From Verrucomicrobiaceae bacterium (GTDB lineage Bacteria; Verrucomicrobiota; Verrucomicrobiia; Verrucomicrobiales; Akkermansiaceae), in contig JAIYDP010000152.1 of the NCBI GenBank assembly GCA_027487435.1, positions 1 to 64,000 of the forward strand: a stretch of DNA of 64,000 bases, written 5' to 3'. The notes under the pieces are model-generated. The model did not search any database and was not told the origin of the DNA. It saw nothing but the letters and a program-made list of their open reading frames with translations. A program made the position numbers and the translations under genes. Below, one piece after another: positions 547-57,913 of this stretch. The stretch's first letter is position 1; each line of letters starts with the position of its first letter.

Positions 547-2570
547 TCAAGCTAACTTTTCAGAACGCCCCGCGTGCTGGGCCTTAAGCTGCACTATCTC
601 TTCTTGAGCCTTCAAGAGCTCAGCTTGAAGCTCAAGGACACTGCCATGTCAATACGTTTGAGTGATCGCACACCGGAGCACCCCGCCTTGAGATCGCAAA
701 TCGCTGACTTCGTTTTCCAAAGTCTAAAAATTGTATTAGCACAATTCCAGACAAAAATACTCTGATCACGACGGCAGCCTCAGACGCTAGAATGTAAGAA
801 AGTATCGGGATAAAGCAAAACCGCGGAGTGTAGCTAGCTGCTCTTTTAAACTGATGGATTCGTCTGCAGCAACTTGCAGCATGTTCTCACAATCCTGATC
901 ATGTCACAGTGAAAGGAGTCAAATCACGGCGCATTTGACTTGGAGAAATCTATTTGCCTACTGTCATGAACAAATGAAGAGGAAATAATGACTTCTTCCA
1001 CCCTCCTCACATGATCGACGAGAAATTGTGCTGCTTCCCGTTTGATTGCGTCATCACCAGAGGCAATCTTGAACATTAAAGAGCCTCGAAGCCAAAACCT
1101 CAGTAAACTTGGTGCGCGCCTCATCAAGCCGCTGCTGCAGCTCCATCACCTCCTCCTGAAATATTTCCAGCCGGTGATTTGATGCACGCTCAGTCTGTGT
1201 GCATCAGTGACAATCATTCATAACTACATTCCGTAATTCTTCTCTAGTCGACGATAGCTCGTCTGACAGCTCTTTCCACTTGCGTTCTGCATTTGCTCCA
1301 CGTCTCTCCTCGGTATTTAAGCGCTAAACTTCAAAGGAGGCTAACCCATTCATCGAGCTGCTTCCGAAGATCTACAATTTCTCTCGAAGCGTCCGACAGA
1401 GCTTTTTGTGGGTCAGAGGGTGCACACAAGGGAGGCGCGTCTGCTGCGTCGGGTAGCCGCAACGGTTCTAAACTGGAAATGCCCTTCTCATATCTAACGA
1501 CTGAATCCCCCAATTGGACTTCGTCTACGGAGTCATAACAAGAGGAACGAACTAACCACGGTCTTCAATAGTACCAAACTCTTTCATTTTCTTTGGATGG
1601 GAATCTTTATGGAATGAAGACATGTGAGGCTTTTGCGCAGGCGCACTGATGGGCCTAGGTCGAAAAGGCCGCCTTTAAACAAGGTCAGATGAAGATGTAG
1701 TGTTCACCTTGAAAGTTCTTGTTCGAGCTTCTCTTCTTCTTGCAGAAGCCGTTCGTCAAGGTCAAGGCTACTTCAATGACACTCACTAGCCCTATCCTTA
1801 CTTCGGGGGTATGAAGTGAGCATCAAACAAAGGGGGCCGTGTTTGCTCTCTGCCTGATGTAACTTTACGTTCAAGCTCTGAAACTCTAAAGAATTAGAAA
1901 CAAGAAAAGGGGGAAAGCACTTCAGTTGCAGTTCTGAAACTATTGCACGGGTAGCAGGCGGCATGTCGACATGTGGAGGGGATATTTCTCTTTTCGACTC
2001 CACAATTCTTCGTTGGCTTGGAGATTCTTCTTCGGAGCTTGGGCCATATCCCTTGCAATAAGAAGCGAAATGAAAAAGGCACATTTCCAAAACCGAGAAC
2101 GAGCCGATCCGGTTTTGGATTCTGCACACCAGCGGGTCGCACTGTGAAGTGAAAAACTACAAACTGGACTGACTTGGTGATCCCGTAGATGCTCTTGGTT
2201 TATCTAGTCGATACGAATTGGGGCCTGTTGAAGTCAGGAATGAGGCTTCCTGGCAACAGTAGCCGAATCGAACTACATCACCAAATTCGAGAAGTACTGA
2301 TCCACTGACGATCCTCCCTTCGTTGACGAATGTGCCATTTCTAGAACCAAGATCTTTAAGACAAATTGACCCTTCTTTCGAGAAAATTACAACTGCATGA
2401 TAGCTAGAAACGCTTTTAGACTGCACAGTGACACCAAAACAGAGCACACGAACTTGCAAAACCAGCATGTTATCTGGCGCCCTTCCTACTGTTGTCTCCG
2501 GCACAACAAAGGAATGCACAAGAGCACTAGAGTTGATGTCACGGAAAACTGCAAACGCTTCTTTGGCCAT
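547..2570 (-). CDS. FHA-domain coiled-coil protein
   Basis: The N-terminus is a forkhead-associated phosphothreonine-binding domain: VGRAPDN, SVSSYHAVV, LGSRNGTFVNEGRI and LLEFGDVVRFG are the classical FHA strand motifs. A 33-nt intron (2421-2453) splits it in frame; removing it restores normal domain spacing. Downstream, several short exons joined by 20-40 nt introns give heptad-rich helices such as LQLKVSELERKV, LDERLLQEEEKLEQEL, DLRKQLDEW and EVMELQQRLDEA, ending near LLKAQEEIVQLKAQHAG and a TGA at 547-549. The layout resembles SLMAP-type FHA plus coiled-coil proteins, but FHA alone does not prove orthology. The FHA exon is certain. The chain of 3' exons between about 800 and 1100 is only partly resolved, and one proposed intron near 2142-2160 would be only 19 nt. 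Confidence 0.75.
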
Positions 2571-2839
2571 CAGAATTTGAGTTTATTCGTTAAAAATAGT
2601 GTCATCTCGTTTGAAAGAAATGCATCGTTGGATGAATCAGAGCCTGCGGGCTTTGACTAAAGCCAATAAATTACTTTTTGGAAATAACTGATGCTACATC
2701 GTTGCGATAGGAGCACAACTGAACATGGAAAGTTGCGGGCTTCCCAGCCTCTCATTGATGGGTGGCTTTCGCAAAGTTGCTCGTGTGGCTCATATAAATT
2801 TGTGGACAAGATTCTTTTGCGTCGAACCTTCCGTGAAGA

Positions 2840-5320
2840 ATGTCCGTGACACGAAATCCTAACCTCGAGTACCACTCTGTTCTTTCGAATCCTCTGAAGC
2901 AAGACTCTCTTTGCACGGATGCTCTTTCAGACAGTGCAGTTCATTGGGAGTGGACTGGCAAGCCTCCAGTGTATGGTCTCTGTCCGGGAGTCTCGGAAGA
3001 CGGAAAGATTTCATCGCTTCCTCATTTGAACCTCGATGTCGTCACTCTTCAGCAGTTGCTGGATTACTTTGACAACACTTGGACACTTACCGAGGTTGTG
3101 TTTTCTTCGATTGCCTCGGAAAAAGCGATCTTCTATCGCCAGCCGTACCATCAGCTACGCCATCCCATGATTTTTTACTACGCTCACCCAGCTGCTCTGT
3201 ACATCAACAAGTTCCGCGTCGCTGGACTCTTGTCCGAGCCTGTGAATGAGCATTTTGAACAGTTGTTTGAGACTGGAGTTGATGAAATGTCCTGGGACGA
3301 CCTCTCTCGGAACGAAACTGAGTGGCCTGATGTTCACTTTGTGACGCAATATCGCGCTCAAGTGTACAAGATTGTATGCGATGTCATCAAGAAAGCCGAA
3401 CTTTCTGGTGGTATTAATATGAACAAGAAGGAATGGGCAATCGTGATGGGATTTGAGCATGAGCGCATTCATATCGAGACTTCGTCGGTCCTTTTGAGAG
3501 AAGTGTTCGGTTTTATTTTATTCTGATCTTTCAGCTCCCTTTCCATCTCGTGACGGTTCCAGGGAACTTTCCTGCAATTTTTCCTTTGTCCAACGACGAT
3601 CCGTCAGTTCCTATTCGCGTGAACAATGAATTTATCACTGTTGAAGAAGGAACCGTGGTCCTCGGTAAGCAAGAATCATTTCCTTCGTTTGGATGGGACA
3701 ACGAGTACGGATCGCTGCCCATGTTTGTCCCTCGGTTCGAAGCTTCCAAGTACCTCATCACCAACGCTGAGTTTTTCGATTTCATCAGGAGCGGGGGCTG
3801 TTGTCGCCGTTTTTCTTTCTCTGACCGCTCAGATCGAGACCGGAAGTTTTGGACTGAAGAAGGCTGGGATTGGCGGACGTTTCGAAATGCGAAATGGCCA
3901 TGCTTTTGGGTGCCTGACGGTCCTGCCGGTCTGCATCGCTATAAGCTGAGGACTACATTTGAGATTGTACCGATGCAGTGGAAGTGGCCAGCTGTTGTTA
4001 ATTTCCACGAAGCTCAAGCTTATTGCAAGTGGCTGTCCGTCACGAAAGGATTGCATCATCGGCTCCTCACAGAAGCAGAGCATTGGGCCATCCGAGGTCC
4101 TCAGTCACGCGTGGACTCTGTGATGCATTTTGATGGCCCTTCTATGAAGCAGGGAGCGATCAATCTTAATCTTGCATATGGTTCTGAGAGCGCGGTTGAT
4201 GCTTCCTCGCCGTCTTCATTAGGATTTCACGATGTCATGGGGAATTTGTGGGAGTGGTGCCTTGATCATCAAAGTGCGCTTCCTGGCTTCAAGATTCATC
4301 CTTATTATGATGATTTTACTCTTCCTTGTTTTGACGGTCGTCACCACATGATTATGGGCGGATCTTTTATTTCGACTGGAGACGAAGCGTCAACATTTGC
4401 TCGATTTCAGTTTCGACCCCACTTCTTCCAGCATTGCGGATTCCGAGTTGTTCGTGGTTCCTCTCAGCCTACCTTGTCTTGCATGGAGTCGCTTGGCCCA
4501 TTCGTAGGTACTTCACCATGTTGTCAAAAGCCGAGCCCAGGAGTTGACGGTAATATTTACGAGACAAAGCGAATGCTTGATGAATATCTACTTTTTCACT
4601 ATGCTTCTTTGAACGAACTTGCTCCTTACTCTTTTGCTCCAAAGGATGCGTGGAACTTTCCTCAGCGTGTTGGCATCGCTGCGAATACGGCTGCGCAGCG
4701 ATATGGAATTGAAACAAAGTCCGCTCTTGATCTTGGGTGTGCAGTCGGTGCCACTTCGTTTGAGCTCGCAAGGGTTTTTGATTCTGTCCTTGCCATTGAT
4801 TTGAGTCACTCCTTTGTTGATGCTGGCAACGACCTTGTTTGCAGTGGTCGTCGATCGTACCTGCGGAAGGATGAAGGCCTTTTGTTTACCGAGCTGCAAG
4901 CTGTCGTTGACCCAACTATCGACCGAAGTCGTGTCCGTTTTCAACAAGGCGACGCATGCAATTTATTGAGCTCAATCGGTTCTTTTGATATTGCAGTGCT
5001 CGCCAACCTTCTTTGCAGGTGACCTCGTGCCTTTGTTGAATTCACTCCACAGAACTCCCAATCCAAGGGCCGTGTTGGCACAAATGGCTGGGCGAAATGT
5101 CGTGAAGCGGGGGGGTCTGTTGGTCTTGACGACTCCATTCACTTGGATGGAAGATTTCACGCCCGTTCAGGCCTGGCTTGGAGGCTACGAAAGGGACGGT
5201 GTCCGGCAAGATAGTTTTGAGGGGCTGAAATCAGAGCTCATTGGTGACTTTGAGCTACTCGTCAAAGAAGAAGTATTCGCTGTGCTCGTGCAATCTGACG
5301 TGGGCAGATGCCTTTCTTAA
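2840..5320 (+). CDS. ovoA: OvoA, 5-histidylcysteine sulfoxide synthase / methyltransferase
   Basis: OvoA makes ovothiol A from histidine and cysteine: its iron oxygenase half joins the cysteine sulfur to the imidazole and its C-terminal half N-methylates the product. Three exons are joined by introns at 3503-3534 and 5020-5052. Splicing the second converts an apparent stop into LLCRTPNPRAVLAQMAG and runs on to TTPFTWMEDFTP, a hallmark of the methyltransferase end. Domain order is an N-terminal DinB-like helical domain (YHQLRHPMIFYYAHPA and EHERIHIETSSV supply the iron-ligand histidines), a central FGE-sulfatase fold (SKYLITNAEFFDFI, DVMGNLWEW, MIMGGSFISTGDE, CGFRVVRG) and a C-terminal SAM methyltransferase (LDLGCAVGATSFELA). 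About 800 residues, full length for the family. The product is a redox-protective thiol known from trypanosomatids, diatoms and marine animals. The gene converges on the small minus-strand gene at 5366. Confidence 0.95.
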
Positions 5321-15063: not shown

Positions 15064-17316
15064 ATGGTGTCCTTTCCTCGCAGTAGCAAATCCTCATCCT
15101 TGCTAATGAAAACCTTCATATTGAACAATCGATGGTTGATCGAAAATTAAACACTGACTGACTCTCGCAGGAAACAACTCACTTTCCGGAAGTTTGGTTG
15201 CATCCCTTGCTCTCACCAGACAGCATTCTGAAGTTGCGAAACATGAAGGCCAAGAAGAAAAGCTCATTCCGGCTGCAGAGAAAGAACACAAGCTGACAGC
15301 TGAGGAGAAGAAACGTGAATTCTCTGCACTGGCTCGTTTCTGGCCAGTCACACTCCGCTCTATTCTAGCCGGAATGCTTATTGGGGGCGCTGTAGCTGGT
15401 TGAATTAGATCCTCGCTGCATTTACGTTACAGCCATGAACATCAATTTCGGTCTTAAAGCCGGATGGACGCAAGGAGGATCTGTTCTCGCGGCCATTCTT
15501 AGCATAGCCTTCTTCTCGTCCGTGAAGAGATTCCTCACGCTCCCGTTTTCAGAGGAAGAAGCGAATATTGCCCAGACAGTGGCATCGAGCGCTGGCACAA
15601 TGACAAGCGCTGCGGTCACCTTTTAACTTTCCAGCGATTGATATGTCCAGGGACTCGTCAGCTCTATTCCTGCCCTCAAATTGATCTCACCAGACGGAGA
15701 TAAGTCGATGGGAGAACTCATGGTACATTCTTACGCCTTCCATGCTCATTCCCCCAAGCTATGGGCATTTGCAGTTGCGTTTCTTGGTGTTTTCTTTGCT
15801 GTTCCTCTTCGCAAGCGCTTGTTGATCAAGGATCGTCTCCGGTTCCCGTCTGGAACTGCGACTGCAGAGACGATTCAGTCCATGTTTGCCTCCGGTGAAG
15901 ATGCCACCCGACGAGCAAAAGTGTTAGGGATTTGGGCCCTCGTGGTTTGTCGAACATTTCGCTGTGTCCTAACAGGACAGTCTGCCGCGTACACTGTTCT
16001 TATTTTCTTTATTCCAATCATAGAGCACCCTCCCCTCCTCGAAGCAATTAAACTTGGAGGAGTTGCCGAACTTGGCTTCGGGTTGTTTGTTGACCCCATG
16101 CTCTACGGCGGTGGCGTTCTCGCTGGATTCCCAGCCGCATGGTCCATGTTTGCAGGAAGTGTGGTTGGTTGGGGAATCATCGGTACGATTGCTAGGCAAA
16201 ATCACTGGGCACCAGCCCCTGTCATGGTATGAGTCCGTTAAGAACCTAATTCTCTCAGAGTTTTGAAGGCGGCGTTCGTGGTTGGATTTTGTGGACTGGC
16301 GTAGCTATCATGACTTTCGATGCAATTATGTCGCTGCTCCTAACTGTAAATTGGAAGTCACTGTGGGCCATCGTGACACGGAAGCCCGTTGAGGATTTAC
16401 AGCCAGAGGATGACTTGCCTGATGAGCAGCAGATTCCGCACTCGTGGTGGATCGGCGGGTTGATGGTCTCAACCACTTCTACATGCCTCGTCCTCTATTT
16501 TTACTTTGGCATCGCTGTGTGGCAGGCTCTCCTTGCAATCCCTATTTCATTCCTTCTTGCTTACATTGCTGTGAGATGCGCAGGCGAAACAGACATCAAC
16601 CCAGTTGCGTTGCAGCGATACATCTGACTCTGCCTTAGGTCGGTGGCATGGGGAAAGTCACGCAGCTCGCCTACTCAGGCATCGCTCCTGGCAGCACAAC
16701 AACGAATCTCATGGCGGCAGCTGTCGCAGCAGCTGGGGCATCACAAGCTGGGGACATGATGCAAGATCTCAAGACTGCTCACATCTTGAGGGTGTCTCCG
16801 CGCCCATCCTTTTTCGCGCAGTGCATCGGAATTCCAGCTGGAATCGCAGTTTGTGTCCCAATTTACAAACTTTTTGATTCCGCTTACCAATTTGGTTCGA
16901 CAGAGATACCTGCCCCTGCAGCCATGGCTTGGAAAGCCGTTGCAGAGGTGCTTGCTGATGGCCTCTCTACAATCGACGTAGTGACGCCGAAAGCACACTT
17001 TGGCGCCCTCGCTGGTGCTTTGTTTGGCATTCTTCTACCCATTTTGCGAAGAGTGTTGAAGGACACTCGTGTGCGTCCATTCATCCCCTCCGGTAGCGCA
17101 TTCGGCCTTGCTTTCATTATATTCCCGTATCAGTCCTTCACAATCTTTCTCGGAGGAGTGACCCATCTCATTTGGTCGAAAGTACGGCCAAAGAGCTGTG
17201 AGGAATCGTCGTTTTCGTTTGCTTCTGGGCTCATTGCTGGGGCTGGACTCTTTGGCGTGTTCAATGCCATTCTAAAATTATCTGGGGTCAAACCTCTTTT
17301 CCCTCTTGATGGTTAA
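15064..17316 (+). CDS. OPT-superfamily oligopeptide/metal-chelate transporter
   Basis: Seven or more exons (introns include 15399-15432, 15615-15650, 16227-16258 and 16604-16638) encode a ~650-residue polytopic protein. OPT hallmarks are present: MNINFGLKAGWTQGGSVL (the family's NIYFGLQTGW-like motif), EEANIAQTVASSAGTM, GLVSSIPALKLIS, GGMGKVTQLAYSGI and PFIPSGSAFGLAFI. OPT/YSL proteins import peptides or metal-chelates with protons across the plasma membrane or vacuole. The N-terminal cytosolic part is charged (AKHEGQEEKLIPAAEKEHKL). The start is the least certain part: the ATG at 15064 joins in frame if an 88-nt intron (15083-15170) is removed. It ends 22 bp from the stop of the convergent tomosyn gene. 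Confidence 0.9.
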
Positions 17317-32719: not shown

Positions 32720-34249
32720 ATGGGCGATGCTGAAGTGACACAATTGACCGCGGACGAGGTGAGCAGACTGAGACAGCATTACGCAAATTCCGAGAAACGA
32801 CGAAAGGATCTTGAACGTGCTCGTGACGAAGGAGGAGCAGGAGTCTTCGAGTCAGAAAGATCCACCTTGTGTGGCGTGGGCCTTGCTCTATCGTCTGAGG
32901 AAAGTGGTTATTTCAGCGTTGTCAGCTTTGTGGATAGCGAGGAGCAAGTTCTTCGCATTGGAGATATCATTCTCGAAGTAGGTGGAGAAAATGTTGCCGG
33001 CATGACAGCACATGAGCTCTTGTCACGACTGATGGGACCAGCGGACACATACATTGAAGTCGTGTTCAAGCGAAGAGGAACCTACGAAAAGAGGAGAACT
33101 CGCCTCCGCCGGCATCTTCCTCGATCTGAGATCAAGAAGAAAGCTGTCGAAGTCGCTTCGAACCAGTTCGAACGTGTGCGGTACTCTCCCAGCGAGTCCA
33201 ACATCCTCGGCAAAGTTGTAACAGCGGGCCACCCTTTGCTCGAATTCACTATCTTTCTTCGTGCAGCTTTGTTGAGGGCGAGGTGGAAAGGAGAAAAGGA
33301 CGGATGTCAGGATTGGAAAGCGACCATCCGCCTCGAAAGCCATGGAGGAAACGTTTATGACTTCAAAGAGTACCACCATGCTGAGTTTTCTGAGGTGCTG
33401 CGCCCATCGTGTCGCTCACGCCATAGCTCCGATCGTTGTTCAATTTAAGCTTTGACCATTATGAGTCTGTCCTGACGGATACGTCGTTTCCATTCCGCTA
33501 CATCGGCACATCTGGCATGAGCGGCTCATTTTTCATGTATTCCGGGGATGGTCGATTCATCATCAAATCCATTTCCAAGTCGGAGCGAAAAGTCCTTGCG
33601 TCGATAATGTCTCCCTACGTGACCCACTTAAGGAACTACTCCAACTCTCTTCTCCCAAAGTTTTGCGGGGCGTATCGCTTGCGGTCATTTCGTGGAGAGT
33701 TGGTTCGCATTGTCATCATGGACAATCTCTTTTGCACGGAGGACGCCATTCATACTGTAATCGATCTCAAAGGATCAACAAAGCGCCGGGCAAGTGCATC
33801 TGAGTCAAATCGTAGGATTTTGACGGATGTGGAGTTGCGACAGGCGCACATGACCCTGCGCTTTGTCAATCAAACGCGAGCAGATCTTTTGCAGCAGATC
33901 GCACTGGATGTGAACTTCTTGCGGTCTTGCGGCCTCTTTGACTACAGCGTCCTCATTGGGGCGCATTTGAAAAGCTTCGAGGACAAGCGACAGCGGCAAG
34001 TGCAAATCGGCTCTTCCGTTGTACGGTCTTGGTTCATTCCGACTCTGCTGTATCTGACAATGAAGGGACTCGGAGGATGGGTCCGCCAAGTATTTTATCG
34101 GCATCGTCGACATCCTTTCTCAATGGGGCGCAGTGGAGGAGGTGAAAAGCTTGGCCGTACGAAGCGTGCGCGGGAATGGTGTTTCGTCCCGACGCCCTGC
34201 GTTTTATGGGGCCAGATTGATGGAGTTTATTCATGAAATATTTCTTTAG
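32720..34249 (+). CDS. PDZ-domain phosphatidylinositol phosphate kinase
   Basis: The N-terminus has a short charged helix (SRLRQHYANSEKRRKDLERA) and a PDZ domain: GVGLALSSEESGYFSVVSF, VLRIGDIILEVGGENVAG, MTAHELLSRLMGP, YIEVVFKR. A linker leads to a PIP-kinase catalytic domain: RYIGTSGMSGSFFMYSGD, FIIKSISKSERKVL, PKFCGAYRL, IVIMDNLF, VIDLKGSTKRR, DVNFLRSCGLFDYSVLIG and KYFIGIVDILSQWG. Splicing of introns near 33391 and 34019-34065 rebuilds F-x-E-LRSLF and the final IVDIL element. PIPKs make PI(4,5)P2 or related lipids at membranes; type I versus type II cannot be fixed. I know no standard PIPK with an N-terminal PDZ. It stops 2 bp before the convergent phosphoesterase stop. Confidence 0.9.
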
Positions 34250-38418: not shown

Positions 38419-41400
38419 ATGGAAGACTTGGCAGAGAAAAAAGATTCACGCGTGTCATGGTTTGAGCACCAAATCGTTCTGATTGTCTCCTCTCGCTCTG
38501 ATCGTTCGGCCTCTCACAACCTCACGCTCGAGCAGAGGTCTCTCCTGACAGCCAATTAACCTAACGCTCCTAGGCGAACGATTGTGGACTTCCTTGAGGA
38601 CCCAAATAAGCGCGTTGTTTGCGTCTCCCTCGATGCTCAGTCGAAGGTTGCCATTCAAACAGACCTTATGCTCTTGGGTGCTCAAGTTGGAGGGGCATAC
38701 TTTATCAAGCGCTCGCATCCAGTGCTGAACGAGAACATCGATACCTTTTTCATTCAAGGGCTTCTGTCGCAAGAAGCGTTGAAGCAGCTGAACGTACTCT
38801 GCAGAGACGTCTTCCTCCCAATCATGCATGGGTCGCATTCGTTGAGAGGGCAAAAGGAGCTACTGGCAAGCGTTCAGCGCTTCATTGCAACTCTGAGCAT
38901 CACAATTGGCCACACAGAGGGCCAAACAGTGCTGCCTCTTCCCGCGATTGATGAAAACATCAAGTTGGAGCAAACGGCGAGTCACGACGTTGAGCTTGAC
39001 CCTGACCAAAAGGAGCTGATCCACTCGCTTGAGGGGACGATTGTGCTTTGGACTAAACAGATCAAGGTTTGCAAGCATATTCGTGGCGAATTGACAAAAC
39101 AGAATGTCCTAAAACTCGACCCTGAGACGTCCATGAAGCAAGGCCTGAATCCAAGGCCCATCAAAGAGATACAGTTTTGGGAGGGGAAGGCCGTGAACCT
39201 GGACTCCATCCAAGCACAACTCTCATCCGACTTCGTCAAGAAGATCATGCGGGTCCTCGAAATGGCTAAAAGTACGTACGCACAACCATTTAGTCGCCTC
39301 TGCAAGGAAGTTGCACTTGCTCGGGTTGAGGCCATTGAAATTATGCGATTTTTGGATGCGTTGCTCCCCCATATCAGAGTCCTTGAAGAAGTCGCCTTTG
39401 AGGGCGTTGTCGTGCACTTCCGGTCTCTGTTGGTGGCATCATTCTTCGTTTGGAAACACTCAAAGTATTACAATACTCCCTCTCGCATGGTGCTACTCAT
39501 TCGCCAATTCGCCAACGAGCTGATTCATCTTGTTTATTCGCCATTCTCCCTTGTCTGACCCTCTAGTCGCGAAAATACATTCTGCAAGACCCAGTCTTCT
39601 CAGCCGAGCCGTCAGTTGTGTCGCAGCGATTGGAGCAGTCGTTGAGAACTTGCTTACAATTCAAGACTGCATATTTCGACGTCAAGGCAAAGGCGGCAGC
39701 AGAATGTCCGAACAATCCATGGAGATTCCAGAATAGCGCACTATTCACGAGGTTGGATATGTTCCAAGAACGATGTCATGACGTGCTCGACCTGATGCAG
39801 ACAATACATCAATGCCGGAACCTGAGCAGGATTGAGATAGGAGGAACAAAGGTGAGAGGACTTGAAGCTGGCCTCATGAAGCAGGGAAAGAGTCTTACCA
39901 TAACAATTCGACAAATCCACTCTGATTTCGAGAATTCGGTTGGAATTTTCAAAGCATCCGGATACGACGTTATCGACATTGAGGAGAAAAAGTTTGACGA
40001 AGATTTTTATCAGTTTCGGTGCAGCGTGAATGAGATGGAGCGGAGACTTGCGTTTCTTCTGTTTTCGTTTCAAACTAACACGGCAGGTCCATTATAATTC
40101 AAGCCTTTGACGACTGCACTACAATAGAGTCCAAATTTAAGCTCATAGATAGCTTCGAAGGAATCATTCAAAGAGAGATTGTCCACACCGAGTTCGAGCC
40201 GAAGCACAAAGACATGATCAAGGCCTTCATTTCCGAATTGAAAGTCGTTCAAGACATCTACTTCGGCATGAATGAGAACCCTCCACTCTCTTCCAACATG
40301 CCTTTCTACTCAGGACGTGTCTCATGGAGTAGAGGTTTGCGTACAAGGATTCACGGATCCATGGAAAAAATTAAATTGGTACTTTCGACTTGTTTATTTG
40401 CTGACACGCAGCTTCCTTTGCAAGTTCTGCAGAGTGATGATTTTAGAGATGCATCGAGACTCTATGAGCTCATTGTGGCGCAACTCGTTGGATTTGAGGA
40501 GAAAAACATTTCAGAGTGGAGCCAAGAAGTGGAGAATGTCTCTCAGGAGAAGCTGAAGCAAAACTTGCTGGGTCGGTCCCAGCAGCAATTCCTTGCTGTT
40601 AACTTTGACCCTGCTTTGGTTGCTATGCTTCGAGAGGTGAAGTACTTTGTCCAAGATGGGGTACAAGTTCCTGATGCTGCTGTTCAGTTGTTTAAGAAGG
40701 CCGAAATGTTTCGACAGCAGATCGGAAACCTAGACTTGATTGTGCAGACGTACAACCGGATTCTTCTAACTCTGTTGGATGTGGAGCGTCCGCTCTTTCA
40801 AACCAAAATGGAAGCCCTGGATGCTATTGTTGTGAAAGGAATCACCCAGTTGACATGGAAAAGCCATGGCATTAGCGAGTTTATCCAACAAGTAACTGCT
40901 ACTGCAAAAGAATCCTTTGGTATCCTCCAGGTCATCAAAGGGAATATGTCTTTGGTTGAAAAAACGCTCAAAGTTTGGGAGGACAATCTCATGATCGAGC
41001 GGCGTGCTGGGAAGACGTACACGGCTGACGAGTTCCAGTCCGTCCATGAGCTACTAGTCCGACAGCGCTATGATGATGTCAAAGCTGGTTCCGATGGCAT
41101 TCAATCACTTCTTTTAGGAAGTCTCAAAGCTGTGAAAGCGTCGAAGGGCTCCCCTGCATGGAGGAACTACATCGACTTCGTTTCAACCGTCGTCCGACAT
41201 CACCTCAGCGAAAGCGTTATTGCATCTGCAGCCTTTCTGAGCAATCAAATTGATGCTAACTACATCGCAAGCCACGACGTGACCGCCCTTATTGAAGTTA
41301 AGTTGGAGCTACTCGGATCCGACATTGTGTTTGTTCCAGACATTGGCTACAATTCAAACAACTCCGTTGGCGTTGCGGAGGGGTGGGTTCGTGATTTTGT

Positions 41401-44400
41401 CAACGTCGCTACCTTTATGCAGCGTGTGGACGGATCGGAAGGAGACCTCTTGTTCGACGTGCAGGAGGACCTCAACGTCAAATTCAGTTGCAATGCCATC
41501 AAAGGTCATCTGCAGCGCAATCGCGAGGACTGCGAAGAATTCCGAAGGTCTTACAACAAGTACTCTTTTCTTTGGAATGACGACATCGCGGGGGCATTCC
41601 TTCACTTCATCTCCTCTCAATCTGTAAGCGACGTTAACTTGGATGCATTCGATGAACGAATCAGATTCTATCGGTCGCTCGAAGACGAAATTAAGGAGCT
41701 TACAGCAACAAAGACCATTGGCTGGCTCAAGATCGACGCCAAACCCCTAAAACAGGCTCTCTTCACTTGGGTGTCCAAGTGGCTCTTTGCTTTCAATCAA
41801 TATCTCCTCAGATACCTCGAAAGTGAAGTTTCTGAAGTGTGTGAGTTCATTGACACTGCTTCACAGCGATTAGACACCGTCGTCACAGACATCCCGACTC
41901 TGTTGCCAGTGCTCGAAACTTGCAGGTCCATCAAGCTGAGGGCTGAGACATTTGAAAGCAAGACTACTCATTTGAATGCTGTCGTTTCTCTGATTGCCAA
42001 GTACGGGACGAGCCCCATGGACTCCACTGTTGTGTCACTAGAGAACCTTCCCGCCCACTGGACTTCGTTAAGGAAAAAGGCAGTTTCGATTAAGGAGAAG
42101 TACGCAGCCTTTCAGCAGCAAGGCGCAGAGGAGCTACGCGGGTTGATTAAAGGACTCGAAGACAGAGCGTTTGAGTTCTCAAAGAAGTTTCTTATTGTCG
42201 CTCCTTTTGATTCATCGGAAATATCTTGTGATGAGGCCTATCGCATGATTGATAAGCTGTTTTTCCGTGGTGGTGCGTTCGAAGAAGGAAGCGATAGTCT
42301 AAATGACCTTGAAGTGGACGTCGAAAGGCTATTCTATCTCTCTCAGATTTATGACATCAGCTACGGAGACTTCAGAGACATTAGATCTTGTCGACAGCAG
42401 CTCGTGAGTCTCAAACAGATGTGGGACATCGTTGCCCTCGGTCAAGATACGATGTCCCAATGGCGTCTCAAAGACTGGGAATCGCTCTCTCTCGGCGTGC
42501 TGCAACAAGTGATTGAAGGGGTGAAGGACACGTTTGACACTTTGGACCGCAATAGCCGGCGCTGGGGTGCGCTGTGCAAATTAAACGACGCTCTTGATCG
42601 CGTGAGCTCTGTTATGCCCATGCTGGATCGGCTGCGCACTGACTTTGTACGGGACCGCCACTGGAAGCAAATCATGAGGGTTGCCAGTGTGTCCATTAAT
42701 GTCAACGCGAAGCTGTCCCTTGGCGATATCCTTAACCTCAACCTTCATGAGCACTTCGCAGAGGTGTACGATATTCTTGATAGAGCAGAAAAAGAACTCG
42801 TTGTAGAAAAGAAACTCAAGCATATTGAGGAGGAATGGGACGTCCTCGAAGTCACCTTCACCGCCACACCCGACGGCTCGGCCTTCTTTATCGTTATCCC
42901 TCAGACTGTCCGTGAATGTATTGCCGATCACAATGTCATCCTTACGACAATCGCTGACACTCCTGTCGTTTTGGCAAACTCTAACTTCTTGGAGGAAGTG
43001 ACCAAGTGGCAGCGGCGGCTGGGCGTCATGGACGAGCTATTTGGGCTGTGGTTGGGAGTGCAGAGTAGATGGCAGTGCTTGTACACGATCTTTGTCGGCT
43101 CATCTGATGTGAAGAACCGCCTTCCTGATGACTCCCGACGCTTCGACATGGTTTCCCAGCAGTGGAAATCTTTCATGCGAGAGGCTTCTTTCATCACCAA
43201 TGCGCTCGAGACGTCATCCTCCGAATCTCGACGAGAAAAACTCGAGGAGGTTGAACGCGTCCTTGAAAAGTGCGAAAATGCCCTCGACGGGTACCTCGAG
43301 ACCAAGCGACGACAGTTTCCTCGACTCAATTTTCTGTCAACGTCCGATCTTGTTGAGATGCTTAGCAAGGCATCCACCCCTCAGCTTATTGTGAACAGCA
43401 TTCTGAGATGCTTTGAAAACCTGATCAAACTCGATTTCACTTCCGGCAAAGACGGGGCGTTTAGAATAGTCACGGCTGTCCATTCTTCTGACGGCGATGT
43501 CCTCTCACTTGCAGCTCCTCTGTTGCTCGAAGGCTCGGTGGAAAGCTATATGGGCGATCTCCTTCGCACCATGCAGCAATCGATTAGAAAAGCAATCTTT
43601 AACGCGTTTGACTCACGCGAAGAAAAAGAACGGTCTGATTGGCTTCACGACAACTGTGGTCAAGCGGCAGTAGTCACGGAGCATTTGGCGTTCAGTCTTG
43701 ATCTTAGCGCCGCCCTGGACGATTGCGAATCAGGCTCTGACCAACCGTTACGGGACCTCGTGAAAAACATTGATGACGACGTCCAAAAGCTTGTAGTAGC
43801 CGTCTCTTCAGACGAAGCTGCTGCGAAGATCGTCGCTGTCATGACCACAAGATTGCACCAGCGCGGCGTCCTCGAGTACCTCCTCTCTAAGCGCTACTTC
43901 AGCGAAGGCGCAAACTTTGAATGGGCGGGCTTGCCAAAGCTTCGTGTGGGAGACAACAGCGAGATCACCGTCTCAATCTTCAACTTGGCATATGCCTACG
44001 GTTGTGAATTCTTTGGCACAAGAATTTTGACGGAATGTCCTTTCAGCGACGGCAGTATGATTGCTATCTCAACCGCCTTTCACAGCAAGTTCGTCTCGAT
44101 GGTTATGCCGCAAGCCACGCCAGCTTCGTCCTTTGCTGCCGCTGCACATTTCTCAGGTTTTTCTTGCATCTCTGTGCAGCCTGTCTCAAACATGGACCCT
44201 ATCCTCAAGGCAATTGCAGGAAGCGGATGTTGGATTGAGATGCAGTTGACTGTGCCTTTCGATTTAGAGATTATATGTTTGGTTGCTTCTTCCTTCGTTG
44301 AAATATTTGCCGCACTCCAAATTGGAGGAAGGGAACTCATCCTCCGTGGATCCGAAGTTAGCCTCTCCAACAGCGCGCACCTGGCCCTTGTTTGCAACCC

Positions 44401-47400
44401 GCACATCCTCTCCTCTCATCTTGACCTTCGCATACCTTCCGACCTTCGATCGATTATACGGCCTGCAATCGTCGGAAGCCCCTCGATGGAGGTCATGATC
44501 GAGATTCTTCTCTCTTCAGTTGGAGTTATTGGTGCCAAATCACTGTCGAGAAGAATCTCTTATGCAATTACTGCTGTCAACAACATGATCCGGGCAATAG
44601 GCACTCGTCTGCTGTCGTTTGAGTTTGTGAAGTCTGCGTTGTCAAGATTTGACGCGAACGGTGTCGAATCATCGAATGTTGCAGCTGTTGTGACGAGTCA
44701 CTTGAGAAGATATCTGTCGAGTCAGCTTGATGGAGCGGACCTTGCCCTTGCGACGACAATTGTTGAAACCACCCTATTGCAAAGCTCTGAAGCAGCGAGC
44801 AACTTTGTTGGAGCCGTCTCCGAACACCCATCGGCTGCCCTCACCAAGGTCCTCTCCTCGTTTGCATCATTTGACGATAGCTTTGAATCCAAATGCAGCG
44901 TTACTCTTGAAGTTATTTCCTCGAATCGAGTCGTCTACATCGTCGGTCCCACAGGGACAGGTAAGTCATCCCTTGTGACTGCCTGCTCCCGAGTTTGGCT
45001 CTCATCTGGATCTGGACCGAAGGACGCTGTCTGCGTCAGCCCTTCGGCGATATTTTCACCCCATCAGTCGCACGACCAGCAATTGTCTTCTTTGGTGCAC
45101 CTCCTTGACGACAACCTGCATTCTCATGGCGATCATGTTGTGGTTTGGTTTGATGGCACTCTTGCGATTGATTGGGCAATGAAAATGACGTCGGCTTTTA
45201 GAGGAGGAGTTGGCCTCACGTTGTCCGGTGAGCGGCGAGTGCTCCCTTCCCTCCTCAGGTTTATTGTTGAATGCGAACACATTCACGATGCGCCTCCTAA
45301 TCTTCTGAGCACTGTCGGATTCGTAGCCATGGGGAATGATGCCACACCTTTGTCTATCGTAATGTCAGCTGTAGATGGGCTTGGAGTCAGCCTCCAACTT
45401 GCGTCAAAGCTTCGTGTAGTCGTTCAGAAGCAATTCACAGCCCTTCTATCCGAGGTGGCTGCGTCTGTCCCTGGGTACAACCTTCGTGTGGTTGCCAGCT
45501 CGTTCAACAGCCTCTTGTCGGGTCTTCTTAAGGTGGCACTCCCCCGTGCTTCTGAAGACGTAACAGAGGACTTCGTCCGTGCCCTTGAGTCAATGGTTGG
45601 GTATGTCAGCTTTGGAGTCGGTTGTGTCCCATTCATTCACGCGTTTGACAGTTGGGTGCGAAAGTGGACAGAATCCAATCGAGCTATGAAGCTTCCTGAC
45701 GGATGCACCATCGCCGATGTGGCTTTCGATCCGTCTGGCCTCCGATGGGTCCCCCTTTCTGAAAGCACTTCCACGTATGTAGTTCCATTCACTGACACAC
45801 CTGCAGGAGCAGTGCTGGTCCCCACCCCGCATACAATTCGCTCCTCGTGCATCCTCGACATCCTTCTAAGTGATCCGCGTCTTCCAGCCATCAATGTCAT
45901 TGCTCCCCGCGCAAGTGGCAAGACTCTACTTGCGCTGGAGAGGCTGCGGCTTTTGGACCCTGAAGCCACAGTATTTTCCGTCGTTTGTACAAACAGTGCA
46001 ATCTGGGCACATCAATTTTTCACCGCCATCGCCGCAAAGCTTGAAAAGAAATCTTCTCGTGTCATGGCTCCCCCATTGTCTAAGCGCCTGACTCTCGTGA
46101 TCGACGACCTCTCTGCAGGACCTTCTCTTGGGGAAGCTGAGGTCTCCCAGGTTGGCTTTATACGATTTCTGAAGGAGCGCAAGGCCTGGTTTGATGGGAG
46201 CCATGGGCTTTCCATTGAGATCCAAAATACGACCACACTCTCAATCTCCACTCCCGCCCCATCACAGGACTACAACTTTAGACTTCTTCGACCGCAAGCG
46301 CTGGTAGCACTTATTCCGACCTTGGACCTGCTGCCCTCAATCCTTGTCACATTGATTCGACACCATTCGTCGTTTCCTGATTCTGCTCCATTTGTCAAAG
46401 CACCATTCAAAGTGGCAGCCGCGAGCGCAGACGTAGTCAATATGACTGTAGAGCGATTTCAGGCTGCAATCGATTTCCGATCTCACTTTTCGCCTGTTCG
46501 TGTAGCCATCCAGATTGTCTGCGATGTTTGCTCTGCGTCCTCTCAAGTCTGTGACCTGGGCGTGTTGGTCAAACTGTGGGCATTTACGACCCATCGTCTG
46601 GTTTCTTGCCGGTTTCCTTCGGTTGAGGAACGCCGCCGCTGCGCAGACGTCATCCGCGAGGTCGCTCGCCGCTATTTTGAGGACGTTCCAGTCGACTCAA
46701 TAATTTCTTGCAACGTTTGGTCTCCGCATGTTGACAGTGAAGGAATCGTCAAGTTGGTACATTCTTGTGGCCTCGAGGAGTGGAGGGGAACTCTGGGTCG
46801 TCGACTCCGCGAACGTAATGATGTTGGGGAGCAAATTGTAGTTCCGCCCACTGACGTCGTGGCTGACTCCGTCACTGCTGCCGTCGCTGCGCTGATTTCG
46901 AGGGTTGGCCACTTGTTTCTCACTGGCGATGTTGGCGTAGGCAAGCACACGATTGCGTCCATCAGTGCGGAATTGCTTGGACTTGATGCTCATGAACTCC
47001 CAACATCATCTGCGTCTTGCAGCGCAGAGATGGTTGTATCGGAGTTGATGGCTTCTTTCATCAAGGTTGGGTGTCAAGGTGTTCCAATTGTGTTAATTGT
47101 CAGACTGGATGAACTCACCAATGATGCGGTTGCTGCACTGGCTCAGTTCGTTAATGGCAGCGATTTCGCTCAAGTTTTGTGTGGAGATGACATTGAGCTC
47201 ATTGTGTCAGCAGTCCGAGACGAAGTCAAACGGGCGGGTCTCATTGAAACTAAGGACAGCTGCATCGACTTCTTTTTCTCCAAAGTCCGCCAGCACCTCC
47301 ATGTTATTTTCTGTTCTACTATTGCGAGCAGCTACAACAACGAACGCGGAACCCTCTTGCGCTCTTGCCAGCGCGCATGCGTGACGTTAGCCTTGAGCGA

Positions 47401-50400
47401 TTTGGAGGGAGACGCCTTTACGTCATCGGCTTCACAGATTTTATCTGAATCTGATATTCTGCGGCCGTACGTCGACGCCGTCTCATCTCATTGTGCTTTT
47501 GCAGCAGAACTGTTGCGCTCGAAGGCAACCAAGACTGGTGCGTTGTCTTCTTTCCCTCTCGTCTGCAACAGGTCGTTTACTGACGGGCTCAAGCTCGTTG
47601 TCGACAAGTGTGCGACCAACACGACATTTCTTTCCAACCGAATCAATCACATTGAAAAGGCATTGCAGCAGCTGTCGGCGATTGAATCGAGTCAGAGCGA
47701 GCTAAAACGGCAGCTAGACGAGGAGACCCAAACGCACGAGCGGCTACGTGCAGTCGTGGAGGATACGCGCACTCGCATCGGGCAGCTTCGAACTGAAGGA
47801 GAAGATGTGCTGGTGAGGCTGCAAGATGTTATCAACACAGCGGCTTTGCTGAAAGTCCAGTCCGACTCACTTCAAGATTTGGTCAACAAGGAGTCAGCTG
47901 ATGCCGACCCGCTCTGGCGCGACGCGGAGAACTGCCTGAATAAGATTGACAAGAAGGCACTTGTGGACCTAAAAGCTGTCTCCAATCCGCCTGCTGAAAT
48001 TCAGGATGTGATTGTTGCTGCCCTAATACTCCGCTTTGGTGCAAAGGAAGGTTCGTGGGCTGCTGCCAAGAAGCTTTTCGCTGCGCCCGAAAAGCTTTTG
48101 AAAGATTTGCGGATGTTCGATCGCTCGCCTTCGTCGGAGCCCAACGTTGATTTGGTCGAGTCGACGTATGCGTCAAAGGACTCTTTCTCCCCTCAAGTTC
48201 TGCGGATGCGCAACGCTACAGTAGCTGAGATGGCAGGATGGGTTCTGCTCACGTGCAGGGCATTCCGGTCTATGTCTCGCTGCTTTCCAACGCGAGCCAA
48301 GCTTTTGGAATGCAACAAGAAGTCTGAAGATCTATCAGCGCATAAAAGTATGCTACAAGAACGGAAATGTGTGATTGAAGAGAGCGTTGTGTCACTGACA
48401 GCTGCGTTCATGGCTGAGACGGAGGCTAAGGGCGACAGTGAGAGAAAGCTTGAGGTTCTTTCGACGTTGCTGGCGACATCAGAGCGGCTAACCGTTCTCT
48501 TAGAGAGTGAGAGAGAAGTGTGGAAGGACGAGCTGAGGGCGCTGAAGGAGCGGCTCCATCGCGTTGTTGGCGATTCAATTTTAGAAGCGCAGTGTGTGAA
48601 TTGGTTTGGTGTCATGTCCACCAGCGAGCAGCCTTTGATTCTCGCTGAGTGGCGCAACGATTTGAAGGACAGAGAGATCCTCTTCTCCTCACACGTCTCG
48701 CCCTTGGCTAAGACTGACGCTCGTCTCCATCACCTTAAAGCTTGCCTCCCCGATGACCCTGCATATCTCCAGGCTGCCACCATTGTAGCCGAGTCCCCTC
48801 GCACGCCCTTGCTCCTCGACGATACCCTCATCGCCGTCGAGTGGTTGCGACGGCAAAGTTCGTCCGTGCGATTGCACGCCAGTGCTTCAAACTTTTCTTT
48901 TTCCTTCGAGGCGTGTGTTCAAAATGGTCTCGCCGTCGTCGTTGACCTCCTCGATGACATACCTCCCCTCCTCAACACATTCTTAACTCGCCGATGGGTC
49001 CGCCGAGGGAGGGCCACCGTCTTCAAGCTCGACGATCGCGAGGTGGAGATCGACCCGGCATTTCGCCTCTACCTCCGCCTCCCAACCGCCGTTGGGCTCT
49101 CGCGGCGCGCGTTTGTTTGGGCCAATCCTGTCCGCTTCAGCGCAAGTCTCGACGTCTTGCACGATCTTGTCATTCTAAAGCTGGCCCAGGGCTCCGACCC
49201 CGTGGCCTTCAATGCGTTTTCTTCATCCGTCGCCGATAAAGTTCTAAACGAAATCAAAGTGGTGCAAGCGGGGGATGCAATTCTGTCCGCCCTTGCCTCG
49301 GCTGAAGCAGCTTGTGTCCTCGACGACCCCGTTCTGGTCGAGCGGATCGAGAACGACTTCTACGACGCCGCTGCCAGAGCGGAGGAGATTCGCCTCCTCG
49401 CCTTGTCTGCGGCGCCGTTCGGCGCGATGAAGAGTGCTCTTCGTCCGGAGGCAGTTAAAATCGTCGCTGCGGTTGAGGCGTTTTGTGAGATGCGCTTGTC
49501 GCTTGGTCAAAGGGTCGAGGTGGGGGCGGCCATAAATTTGATCGAGCCATGCATGGCCTCTCTCGTCGACAAAGCCGAGGTCTTCCCCTCGTTTGTGCAG
49601 CTCCTCTCTTCATCTCTCCCTGCGTCGTCCCGCACGGCCTTCATTTGCCTCGTCAAGCTCCTCCATGCCGTGGCCTCAAGCGAAATCTCCGCCCAAATGC
49701 TCAATTTCATTCTCTCCGCTTCTTCTTCGCCCACTCCTCCAATCCCCAACCCCGTGCAAGATGTCCTCTCCGACAATGTCTGGGCCTCCCTCTCTGAGCT
49801 CTCCGCCTTTGCCCCATTCGAGCCCCTCCAACAAGACGTCGAAGCCGCTCCCAAGCGCTTCCGTGACGCTTTTGACGGGGATTTCCCCGACGACGCTGCG
49901 TTGCCGGGGGATTTTCGAAAGCTCTCAGACCTCCTGAGGTGCTTCATGTTCAAAGCCTTTCGTCCTGACAGACTCATCCATGTCTTGCAAGCGGTCGCCG
50001 TCAAGTTCGTCGGGAGGACCCCTTCTGAAATGTCTTCACGCGAAGCTATCGTCAACACACTGGCCCTCACGCCCATGGCCATCATTCGCTCCCGCGATGC
50101 TCTCGTCGCCGACGACGCGGTGCGCCGTTTGTCCTTCCGCCTAGGCCCGTCGTGGCCACTACAGTGGGTGGACGCCGCAAACTCAAGCCTTGATATCGTG
50201 ATTCAAGAAAAGATCGGGTTAGTGGTTCTGTTCAATCTGAGATCCTGTGTTGACACGGTCCTTGCGAGAATTCTTGCGCTACGAGAGACCCTCCTCGCTC
50301 GCATCGGGGAGGGGGTCGTTCGGTTCATCCTGGTGGACAACTCCTGCGACCAGTCCCTTCGTGCGCTGGAGGGAACCTTCGTTTCCATCAACGTTGACGC

Positions 50401-52004
50401 ATCCGACAGCTTTGAGGCTGCTCTCGCGCTGCGCCTTCGCCTCGTCGAAGAGACGCTCGCACAGCCCCACCTCTGTCACGACCTCCGCACATTCCTCATC
50501 GGCGCGTTGGCCGTTCATGCATTTTCCTGTCACGACGTACGTGTTTTGAAGCTTCTCTCATTTCCTCACAGGTTCCATCCGTTGGAGGCGCTTGCGCGGA
50601 CGCTCAAGCCTTGGTTGCAGGGGCGATCAGTTTTGCTGCACGAATGGAGGAATTCTCCCTGGATGCGGTGTCCAGTTTCTCCCTTAAGTCTCTTCTCCTT
50701 CATTTCCCACAATCTCTCATCCAGTCTAAATCCCTTGCTGCCGCCGCGAAGGTACCCCCTCCTGTCGTCCCCCCTCATGCGGCAGGCTGTCTTCTCACCT
50801 GACGTACTCGAGCAATCGCTCTTCAACGAGGCCCTTGCAGCACCCAATGCACCAAACAAATTCATTCTGTTTGCTCGGCAACTTGAGCAGGAACCTCCGC
50901 CTGCTAGCCTCAACCTGTTCGGCCATGTTGTTCGCACCCGCTCCCGCCAAGACTCGTCCATTGCGAGTCTTCTCGAAGCCAATGCAAGGGCACTCCCAAA
51001 CGTTGTACCGCTCCGATCTGTCGAAGAACTGGCGGGAGAGGCAATTGTCGAGCTGCTGGTAGATATCCCAACCTTCGTGGCGTAACGCTGCAGGACCGCA
51101 TCCCCGAGAATAGTCTTGCTAGCCCGTCAGAGTCGGATGCTGAAGAGGGTCCTGTAGGTGCGGCGGTCGGGCGGGAGATTGATGGCTTCAATGGGCTGCT
51201 CGTGCGAGTCCGTGAGGACATAGATGCTGTCGATCGAGTTCTCAAGGGTGAATCCGACATGACACCGTCGCTGCGAGATTTAATTCAAATCCTGGTGGGC
51301 TTACATAATCATGCCATTCTTATCCCGCAGGCGGACAGGAGGCTCCCACCGCATTGGACTCCTCTCCCATATGCTTCCTGTCGCTCCCTCTCGGATTGGA
51401 CAAGCCGCCTTGCGGCACATGCCAACTCATTAGCTGATTGGGTTGACGACCCAAACTCTCCAAGGCTCATCAATGTCGCACTTTTGATGCGCCCCGAGGC
51501 ATTCCTTCAGGACTTCCTCCACACGACCGCCACCAAGTGCGTCGATCAAAGTATGAGCTGACGCCGAAGGTCCAACGCAGACCCTTCCGAATGGGGCCTC
51601 GTGTTTGAAATCCTGCGCAAAAGCCCAAATGAAATCACCACCGCTGCCCGCGACGGTGTTTTCATTTGTGGGGTACGGGTTGTTGGGGCGGAATGGGAGG
51701 ACAAGCAAATGAATCTTGAGCGGCCGTTGGCTGCGTCTCATGTTTGATGAATTGAAGTTGGGCTGAACCCCTCAGATGGAGCCGATGCCTGTTATTTTGT
51801 TGCGCGCAGCACCTCTTGCAGAGGAAGAGCGTAGCTCGCTGGATTTTTCTTGTCCCATTTATTTAACAAACGTTTGGTTGACAAGGCGCGACGCTGACTG
51901 CTCAGGCGACCACCCCCCTGTCCTTCTCCATTCCGCTACGGACGCGCGTGAGTCCGCTGCTTTGGGAGGCTGCGGCGGTGAAGGCCGTGTTTGATGGGGT
52001 CTGA
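38419..52004 (+). CDS. Divergent dynein heavy chain with degenerate AAA1
   Basis: About 4,400 residues; one uninterrupted exon covers 40.1-51.1 kb, with short introns only near the ends (38538-38573 first). Tail: MEDLAEKKDSRVSWFE, WRFQNSALFTRLDMFQERC. Motor: the AAA1 region starts FEWAGLPKLRVGDN and ends VCNPHILSSHLDLRIPSDLR, but where Walker A should be there is ECPFSDGSMIAISTAF (about 44035-44080) and where CFDEFNR should be, CWIEMQLTVPFD (about 44230). AAA2 keeps GPTGTGKSS (44946) and WFDGTLAIDW; AAA3 has APRASGKT (45903); AAA4 has GDVGVGKHT (46927). A stalk and microtubule-binding domain follow (KALVDLKAVSNPPAEIQ, MAGWVLLTCRAF). The C-terminus is standard after splicing: LPPHWTPLPYASCRSLSDW, DGVFICGVRVVGAEWED, CPIYLTNATTPLSFSIPL. 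A cytoskeletal motor-fold protein, probably not an active motor in the usual sense. Confidence 0.93.
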
Positions 52005-56290: not shown

Positions 56291-57913
56291 TTAGTCAGAG
56301 GCACCCGCAGCATCATCGGCGGGGGGAGTGGATTGTGTCTCAGTGAGATTCTTGACTTGCTCCTTAAGCTGTGCATTCTGACCCAATAAGGTACGTCGAA
56401 GGAGAGCACAAACCTCGGCCTCGAGTTCTTCAATCTTCTTGAGAGCCTCAGCCAACGACATGGCGGGCTTCATTGCCGGCTTCGCCGTTGGTGACATAAC
56501 AGGGGCGGCAGCAGGCTTCGTCGTCGTGGAGGCAGCGGCAGGTGCAGCACCTGCGAGGGGGGGATACTTGCCATCATCGTAAGTTCCATCACGCACGGTT
56601 CGAGCCCCGGGGCGCAATGAAATCATCTTTGGTGGCTTGTTGGCTCCCGAAAGCCATTCATCTGCGGAAAGAGACGGAATGCCAGCGTAAGTATCGCAGT
56701 AGATGTCCTCTTGGAAGTTATCACCCTTCAACATGAGCGAATGACAACTACCCCCTCCAACCTTGCGAGGAACTTCAAACTTCACTGGCTGGACAGAATT
56801 GTCCAACACGCGGAGGAAACGCGCGATCTCGGTTGTGCTGACATCAACACTTCGCTTCGGCATCATGGCACACCCACGTTGCGTTTCCTTCCCACGGAAC
56901 TCCGTCAAGAAGTACTGGTATGGCGCTTCGTCCACCATCTCAAAGTACTTAATGCTAGTTTCACCCTACTGCATCAGAGACCGCAGCGGCGCGCATACTT
57001 TGCCAGCCAAGAAGAGGATCCCCGTGTCGCTGTCGTAGAAAGGCATCAAGCTTCCAGCGGAATTGTCAATGTCCGTCGAGTAGAGGGGCGACGAAGTATT
57101 ACGTTGATCCCACAGCATCATCTGACGATACGCCGTCTTGGAGAACCCAACCGTCACAAGACGAGGATTGTTGCCGAGGAACAATATACGACTTGGCTTC
57201 GTTCCCTGGTGGCCAGCGAAAGTATCAGCAAGTGAGCCGCGAACATCAACGATGCGGATGTTCTTATCCTTGCAAGTAGTTGCAAAGAGACTCCCGTCAA
57301 AGTTCCAATCGAGGCATTGGATGAAATCCGGGTGAGCGTCGAAGCTCGTCGCAACAGTCTGTTTAGAGAGATCCCAGATTTTGATACTCAGATCAGCTGA
57401 AGTTGACGCAAGGATGCTGTCTGCTGACGGATGGAAGACAGTATGCAGAATCTTCTTTTGGTGCGCAGAGAGCGTCGCAGACGCTTGCAAGTCCTCTTTA
57501 AGGCCTCCGTCGGGAAGATTGTAGATCTTGAGCGTAGTATCCTCTGAACCGGTGACAACAACATCCGAATTGAAGGGGGAGAAGTCAAAGTCAATGATTT
57601 CGCCCGTATGGCCAGTCAACATAGGAGGCTTGCTGCCAAGGTCGAGGCGGCCATATTTGTCATAGGAGCTCACATAAAGCTGACCGCCCCCCCCTCGCCA
57701 GCCTACAGCAAAGTATTTTTCAGACGCTTTGATCACGTTGTTGTCAGACGCTCCAATAGCAACTTGAATGTTCTCGTAGCATGACTCTCTCTTGAATGCA
57801 GTACCAAACACATGACGGTACTAGAGCATTAGAACCATACAGAGAATGAGCAAATTCTGTTCGGAGGGACAGTCAGAGAAGCGTACCTTTGAAGCTCGGA
57901 CAATCTTCGCCAT
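56291..57913 (-). CDS. Coronin
   Basis: Actin-binding WD40 protein. A 9-residue first exon (MAKIVRASK) is joined by a 66-nt intron (57821-57886) to YRHVFGTAFKRESCYENI, the classical coronin opening. Seven-bladed propeller strands: YFAVGWRGGGGQLYV, LTGHTGEIIDFDFSPFN, VTGSEDTTLKIYNLPDGG, SADLSIKIWDLSKQT, DWNFDGSLFATTCKDK, FAGHQGTKPSRILFLGNN, MMLWDQRNTSSPLYS, FLAGKGETSIKYFEM (spliced at 56966-56998). The family-specific extension (GCAMMPKRSVDV, EIARFLRVLDNSVQPV, FQEDIYCDTYAG, WLSGANKPPKMISLRP) follows, then an Ala/Pro linker and a C-terminal coiled coil (LAEALKKIEELEAE, NAQLKEQVKNLTE). About 510 residues, a normal short coronin. It regulates Arp2/3 actin networks in motility and phagocytosis. 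Confidence 0.96.

Follow-up and report, generated by a model that had tools for sequence, protein, structure and literature searches.

Can a dynein heavy chain that has lost its main ATPase site still serve in an axoneme, and in what capacity? The question is raised by a gene on contig C355 (101,158 bases), which belongs to an assembly labelled as prokaryotic. The gene lies within the opening 64 kb of the contig, referred to below as the window, and takes the name of the contig. By its tail and linker, C355 is an outer-arm beta-class heavy chain. We propose, with a probability of roughly 0.6, that it has turned into a pseudo-motor, dead as an ATPase and kept for arm assembly or passive linkage. 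Its function is read here from sequence; the chain probably takes the place of a motor structurally without working as one.

Loss of the Walker motifs in AAA1

Every dynein that produces force is held to be driven by ATP hydrolysis at AAA1. The AAA1 core of C355 lies at 43916..44416 on the plus strand, as do all features of the gene described below. The initial annotation proposed a dead site between well-aligned flanks, and both parts of this proposal are confirmed: FEWAGLPK (43916-43939) and LVCNPHILSS (44387-44416) frame a domain with neither Walker A nor Walker B. At the Walker A position (44105..44131), alignments with paralogues and solved dyneins place MPQATPASS instead of GPAGTGKTE. 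The domain is 7 residues shorter than canonical AAA1 at the P-loop, with the exact place of the gap varying between alignments. The string originally taken for Walker A, ECPFSDGSMIAI (44033-44068), aligns with the TPLTDRCYxTL segment upstream of the P-loop instead. At the Walker B position, CWIEMQLTVPFD (44228..44263) has QL in place of DE; C355 reads IEMQLTV, against [CD]FDEFNR in all seven canonical paralogues.

The chain therefore carries neither the AAA1 Walker A (GxxxxGK[ST]) nor the DE-containing Walker B of a force-producing dynein. The sensor 1 Asn remains (CNP for MNP). Identity to the canonical paralogues is 20% over this region, and the Pfam AAA_6 profile scores 59.7 bits over positions 57-327, against 459 bits over 1-327 for the canonical chain C430. 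All six frames of 43700-44700 lack a P-loop ([GA]xxxxGK[ST]) and an FDE, and 43800-44700 contains no GT-CTRAY-AG intron of 20-60 nt. A hidden frame or intron restoring AAA1 is rejected on these empty scans; an alternative splice of that kind is among the refuting conditions named in the initial annotation. At the level of sequence, these results support the view that the heavy chain would be unable to hydrolyse ATP at AAA1.

Domain organization

C355 has the tail and linker of a dynein heavy chain. The tail, DHC_N1, spans introns 2 and 3 (39019..40882; Pfam 121.6 and 108.1 bits in the two exons, 186.2 bits in the open reading frame, ORF), and the upstream exons match profile positions 1-153 and 156-305. 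The linker, DHC_N2, is conserved (42383..43603; Pfam 304.9 bits, 311.6 bits in the genome search). The ring of six AAA modules, with its stalk/MTBD and C-terminal domain, is represented by AAA_6, AAA_7, AAA_8, MT, and AAA_9 at 46.3-75.9 bits and by Dynein_C at 55.8 bits, all of them weak. AAA6 can be aligned, but is not recognized by a profile among the best 25 of 30 Pfam families, which is the scope of all Pfam results for the ORF.

The P-loops announced for the next three modules are all found at homologous places, with Walker A kept as GPTGTGKSS in AAA2 (44945..44971), APRASGKT in AAA3 (45902..45925), and GDVGVGKHT in AAA4 (46925..46951). AAA3 also has LTLVIDDLS at its Walker B position (46088..46114). 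A strict P-loop pattern, expected 0.12 times in the shuffled C355 protein, is found three times, in AAA2, in AAA3, and once by chance in the tail; a looser pattern matches AAA2 and AAA4. The stalk and microtubule-binding domain (MTBD) are recognizable (47864..48622; Pfam MT 64.6 bits, ORF residues 2551-2803). The C-terminal domain, initially reported together with them, is likewise recognized, but in a downstream exon (51094..51536; Pfam Dynein_C 55.8 bits); no Dynein_C is among the same 25 of 30 families for the ORF itself.

Gene structure

The single open frame of 10.9 kb that first drew attention exists (40214-51085, 3623 aa), but it is not the whole gene, as further exons lie upstream and downstream. 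Our model of the gene is a prediction in which both flanks of the ORF were read and seven GT-AG introns of 20-36 nt were placed by hand. It runs from an ATG at 38419 to a TGA ending at 52004 (38419..52004), with 8 exons encoding 4452 aa in one frame without a break. Each intron has a CTAAC-, CTGAC-, CTGAA-, or GTAAC-like box ahead of its AG. CTAAC precedes the AG of intron 1 (38538..38573, 36 nt) and intron 3 (40067..40086, 20 nt); CTGAC that of intron 2 (39532..39566, 35 nt), intron 5 (51537..51569, 33 nt), and intron 7 (51872..51905, 34 nt); GTAAC that of intron 4 (51059..51093, 35 nt); and CTGAA that of intron 6 (51742..51775, 34 nt). Of the 7 introns, 6 were also recovered by an independent automatic coding-potential model that works from codon scores, which read through intron 7. 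It also put two extra introns near 50.5 and 50.8 kb, which were not adopted.

The argument that this is no ordinary pseudogene is supported at the level of sequence, since the eight exons join in frame and the AAA2-AAA4 P-loops are kept. Frameshifts, in-frame stops, and lost splice sites are absent from the gene model. Codon-position composition, which is not a full neutral model, predicts about 64 stops in the 2411 motor codons, and 0 are found. Synonymous codon bias is too weak in C355 for judging the frame.

We note that the introns are very short in nearly all modeled dynein genes of the assembly, mostly 28-40 nt, and carry a CTRAC-like box directly ahead of the AG (window 38538-51905; L029-L037). 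Introns of similar size, about 32 nt, are given for Blastocystis in PMC3129679, a resemblance that serves as a lineage lead only.

Assignment to the outer-arm beta class

Chlamydomonas beta, at 1050.7 bits, leads the best 60 of 90 matches of the ORF to solved chains; DNAH17 (832.3) and DNAH9 (786.2) come next, and Tetrahymena beta stands at 652-656. Two kinetoplastid chains score 669.3 and 635.5 bits; they are labelled only 'dynein heavy chain, putative', and beta is our reading of them. The best seven match groups (1050.7-635.5 bits) are all beta or presumed beta, and the first other chain reaches 493.3 bits. A linker tree of 14 rows, comprising ten paralogues from the assembly and four beta references, agrees. 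It joins C355 to the paralogue C201 (95/99) and sets these two and the four references apart from the remaining eight paralogues (100/99). Branching inside the beta group is weakly supported (61/51), and C201 has a long branch and an odd composition. Branch lengths are 1.27 for C355, 2.4 for C201, and 1.77 for a third divergent chain, C266.

C355 thus resembles the known outer-arm beta chains (Chlamydomonas ODA4, animal DNAH9 and DNAH17, and the Tetrahymena and kinetoplastid beta chains) in its DHC_N1, DHC_N2, ring order, stalk/MTBD, and C-terminal domain. It differs from them in that both Walker motifs of AAA1 are missing and the ring is strongly diverged. Homology to DNHD1, also suggested by the initial annotation, is not supported; the tail is of outer-arm beta type by a wide margin, although no DNHD1 sequence was among those compared, and no chain of that name appears among the same best 60 of 90 matches. 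The likeness is that DNHD1, an animal orphan or 'ghost' dynein heavy chain, is likewise a heavy-chain gene thought to be no ordinary motor (PMC8754002). C355, in contrast, falls into a named class.

Other heavy chains of the assembly and the conservation pattern

The AAA_6 profile returns 13 rows in the assembly. Ten heavy-chain loci were modeled, and two fragments, C130 (broken) and C66 (without AAA1), were set aside. The first of these (L038, about 2200-3200) holds a garbled AAA1 in which FDEFNR is followed by unrelated sequence; the gene may be broken or the contig misassembled there. Conventional dyneins, which the initial annotation proposed to look for in the same genome, are present: AAA1 is canonical (GPAGTGKTE, [CD]FDEFNR) in 7 of the 10 modeled chains. 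C430 and C214 are of gamma class, C332 of DNAH10 class, and C167a of DNAH2 class, while C269, C167b, and C207 are provisionally taken for single-headed inner-arm chains.

AAA1 is degenerate in the remaining three, C355, C201, and C266. No close relative turned up in which a normal AAA1 could refute the dead site, as the initial annotation proposed, and the nearest relative, C201 (L034, C201:1-7000), is itself degenerate. It is also of beta class; its AAA1 reads GPGGGGKKE and LDG (LDGLSN), after which the contig ends. C266 (L035, C266:22000-39000) is of gamma class, with GAASSGKAT and FGG (FGGLSA); it has lost the AAA4 P-loop, kept those of AAA2 and AAA3, and retains its MTBD well. The Walker A lysine is kept in both C201 and C266, so nucleotide binding there is possible. 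C355 shows the most complete AAA1 loss of the three.

Mean identities to the canonical paralogues were compared with those of three of the seven canonical chains (C430, C332, and C269) as yardsticks. In the linker, C355 reaches 25.0%, C201 23.1%, and C266 26.9%, versus 31.8, 34.1, and 34.0% for the yardsticks. In AAA1 the values are 20.0, 18.9, and 23.8%, versus 58.5, 62.4, and 65.6%. The MTBD gives 18.5% for C355 and 27.3% for C266, versus 29.7-33.7%, and every ring module of C355 lies at about 15-21%. A linker that is fairly well kept next to a collapsed AAA1 suggests that the part that assembles the arm has been retained and the extra catalytic constraint is gone.

Host and searches beyond the assembly

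The assembly (G000) comprises 9,391,796 bases in 506 contigs. Nine congeners are 2.9-4.4 Mb in size and have no DHC_N2, versus 9.39 Mb for the present assembly with its eukaryotic contigs, the window included. The host of C355 is a flagellate protist that was co-binned with a bacterial metagenome-assembled genome (MAG) and only partly recovered. A eukaryote is expected to have 14 proteasome and 8 CCT subunits; the bin yields 5 proteasome loci and 2 Cpn60/TCP1 loci, one of which is perhaps bacterial. Because recovery is partial, the lack of a canonical beta chain in the bin proves nothing, and one may exist outside it. The idea of a protist without a normal beta chain was rejected for the same incompleteness. 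Other genes of the window are ordinary eukaryotic neighbors: a WD40/DUF1899 gene on the minus strand (56291-57811), which we take to be probably coronin, a PIP5K gene (33436-34236), and a piece of an OPT transporter (15681-16232).

DHC_N2 is found in none of 37 other relatives and in none of 385 other genomes of the order. No tail relative was confirmed from 24 pattern matches in genome_contigs or 50 in viral_contigs, and none of the 52 matches from a canonical AAA1 scan of viral_contigs was confirmed. The same scan of genome_contigs gave 152 relatives, of which 80 were kept, namely 10 dyneins (L048-L057) and 70 short P-loop matches. The Walker A region is canonical in 9 of these 10 dyneins, and the tenth begins past Walker A, but this control is biased toward canonical sites because the scan patterns were PAGTGKTE and the FDE motif. 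Among them, L052, a contig of a sheep-rumen MAG, serves as an outside beta control: Tetrahymena beta is the chain closest to it (474.6 bits) and its AAA1 is canonical, but it was itself found by the canonical motif. We also note that the ten dynein contigs come from other bacterial MAGs, 7 of them with rumen or RUG in the title, which points to co-binned eukaryotes in public genomes.

A proposed pseudo-motor in the outer arm

If AAA1 of C355 binds no nucleotide, the chain could neither make a power stroke nor let go of the microtubule under the drive of ATP. The tail would still dock in the outer arm beside a gamma heavy chain, for which the assembly offers two canonical candidates, C430 and C214. 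C355 would then act as an assembly scaffold, spacer, or passive linker, and its ring may keep arm-to-arm contacts while partner heads give force. According to PMC12338079, beta and gamma heavy chains make up the outer arms, and in Chlamydomonas the N-termini of both are required for arm formation, while arms still assemble in mutants that lack one motor domain. PMC11496786 adds that IC2 touches the beta motor domain of the neighboring arm. On these grounds, C355 may be read as a structural or regulatory beta subunit. The role of dimer partner offered initially is plausible as well, because C355 is of beta class by tail and linker and outer arms are made of beta and gamma chains. The nearest likeness is to the Chlamydomonas mutants oda4-s7 and oda2-t, in which the beta or gamma motor domain is removed and, as PMC12338079 and PMC11496786 describe, an outer-arm chain cannot drive sliding but keeps its tail. 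These, however, are laboratory mutants without a motor domain, whereas C355 is an evolved gene with a whole ring in which AAA1 catalysis alone would be lost.

A bolder extension, quite unlikely in our estimate, is an entirely motorless outer arm. A dead beta chain (C355 or C201) would pair with the dead gamma chain C266, and the resulting arm would sit at particular doublets or regions, serving there as spacer, bridge, or elastic link beside ordinary arms with C430 and C214.

Several observations weigh against a retained pseudo-motor. The AAA1 region alone carries no class signal, its best match being a gamma-labelled chain (85.6 bits) with Chlamydomonas beta at 54.1. No orthologue of C355 was found outside the assembly in the collections scanned (genome_contigs, viral_contigs, and the genomes of the order). 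Two structure predictions have low confidence (pLDDT 54.8 with pTM 0.37; 52.4 with 0.45) and are too poor for detailed use. All 50 matches listed for the second model are long chains of dynein or axoneme entries (E 2.3e-09 to 7.4e-07), but they support a kept AAA fold only weakly because the underlying alignment held canonical dyneins. Finally, the divergence of C355 extends over the whole ring, the MTBD included (18.5%), and so fits slow decay as well.

Such decay is the rival that survives best, though we consider it unlikely. A beta duplicate freed of motor constraint would be heading for loss, its frame staying open since a truncated form is harmful, in the manner of a 'ghost gene'. The low identity of the ring modules and the long branches of C355, C201, and C266 agree with this, and PMC8754002 describes DNHD1 as a ghost gene that is perhaps becoming a pseudogene. 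However, C355 runs for 4452 codons without a frame break, and its tail and linker are conserved. P-loops are kept in AAA2-AAA4 of C355 and AAA2-AAA3 of C266, and the same pattern recurs in three separate chains with frames intact where sequenced.

A nucleotide-independent microtubule tether or brake is distinctly unlikely. Here the empty AAA1 would leave the head in an apo-like, tightly bound state that crosslinks doublets and damps or sets the waveform. According to PMC7215579, ATP binding at AAA1 opens the grip of the MTBD and drives release, and hydrolysis powers the stroke. The stalk and MTBD are recognizable in C355, and the MTBD of C266 is nearly canonical in identity. Nonetheless, the MTBD of C355 itself is diverged, and a permanently bound head in each arm would oppose sliding.

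Co-option of the tail outside the outer arm (at the basal body, in the cytoplasm, or as an assembly factor) would accord with the long branches in the linker tree, but is very improbable given a tail of normal outer-arm beta type from DHC_N1 through the linker. An assembly error, chimera, or hidden splicing that masks a normal AAA1 is scarcely credible: although the contig comes from a bin mixing bacterium and eukaryote and the gene models are predictions, no P-loop or typical intron is hidden in the region, the degenerate sequence aligns along the entire AAA1 with one 7-residue shortening, and AAA1 has degenerated differently in two more chains, each on another contig.

The outer-arm pseudo-motor is therefore the reading we favor. 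Searches of an open-access library listed no account of an outer-arm heavy chain whose AAA1 is dead, and to our knowledge an evolved full-length chain of this kind, accompanied in its genome by two partly degenerate ones, is an undescribed variant. If the reading is correct, C355 would separate the need of the outer arm for beta as a structure from its need for beta as a motor; until now, truncation mutants such as oda4-s7 have been the way to address this. Other enzyme families are known to include pseudo-motors, and degenerate beta and gamma chains in one organism would suggest that such proteins are workable in axonemes too.

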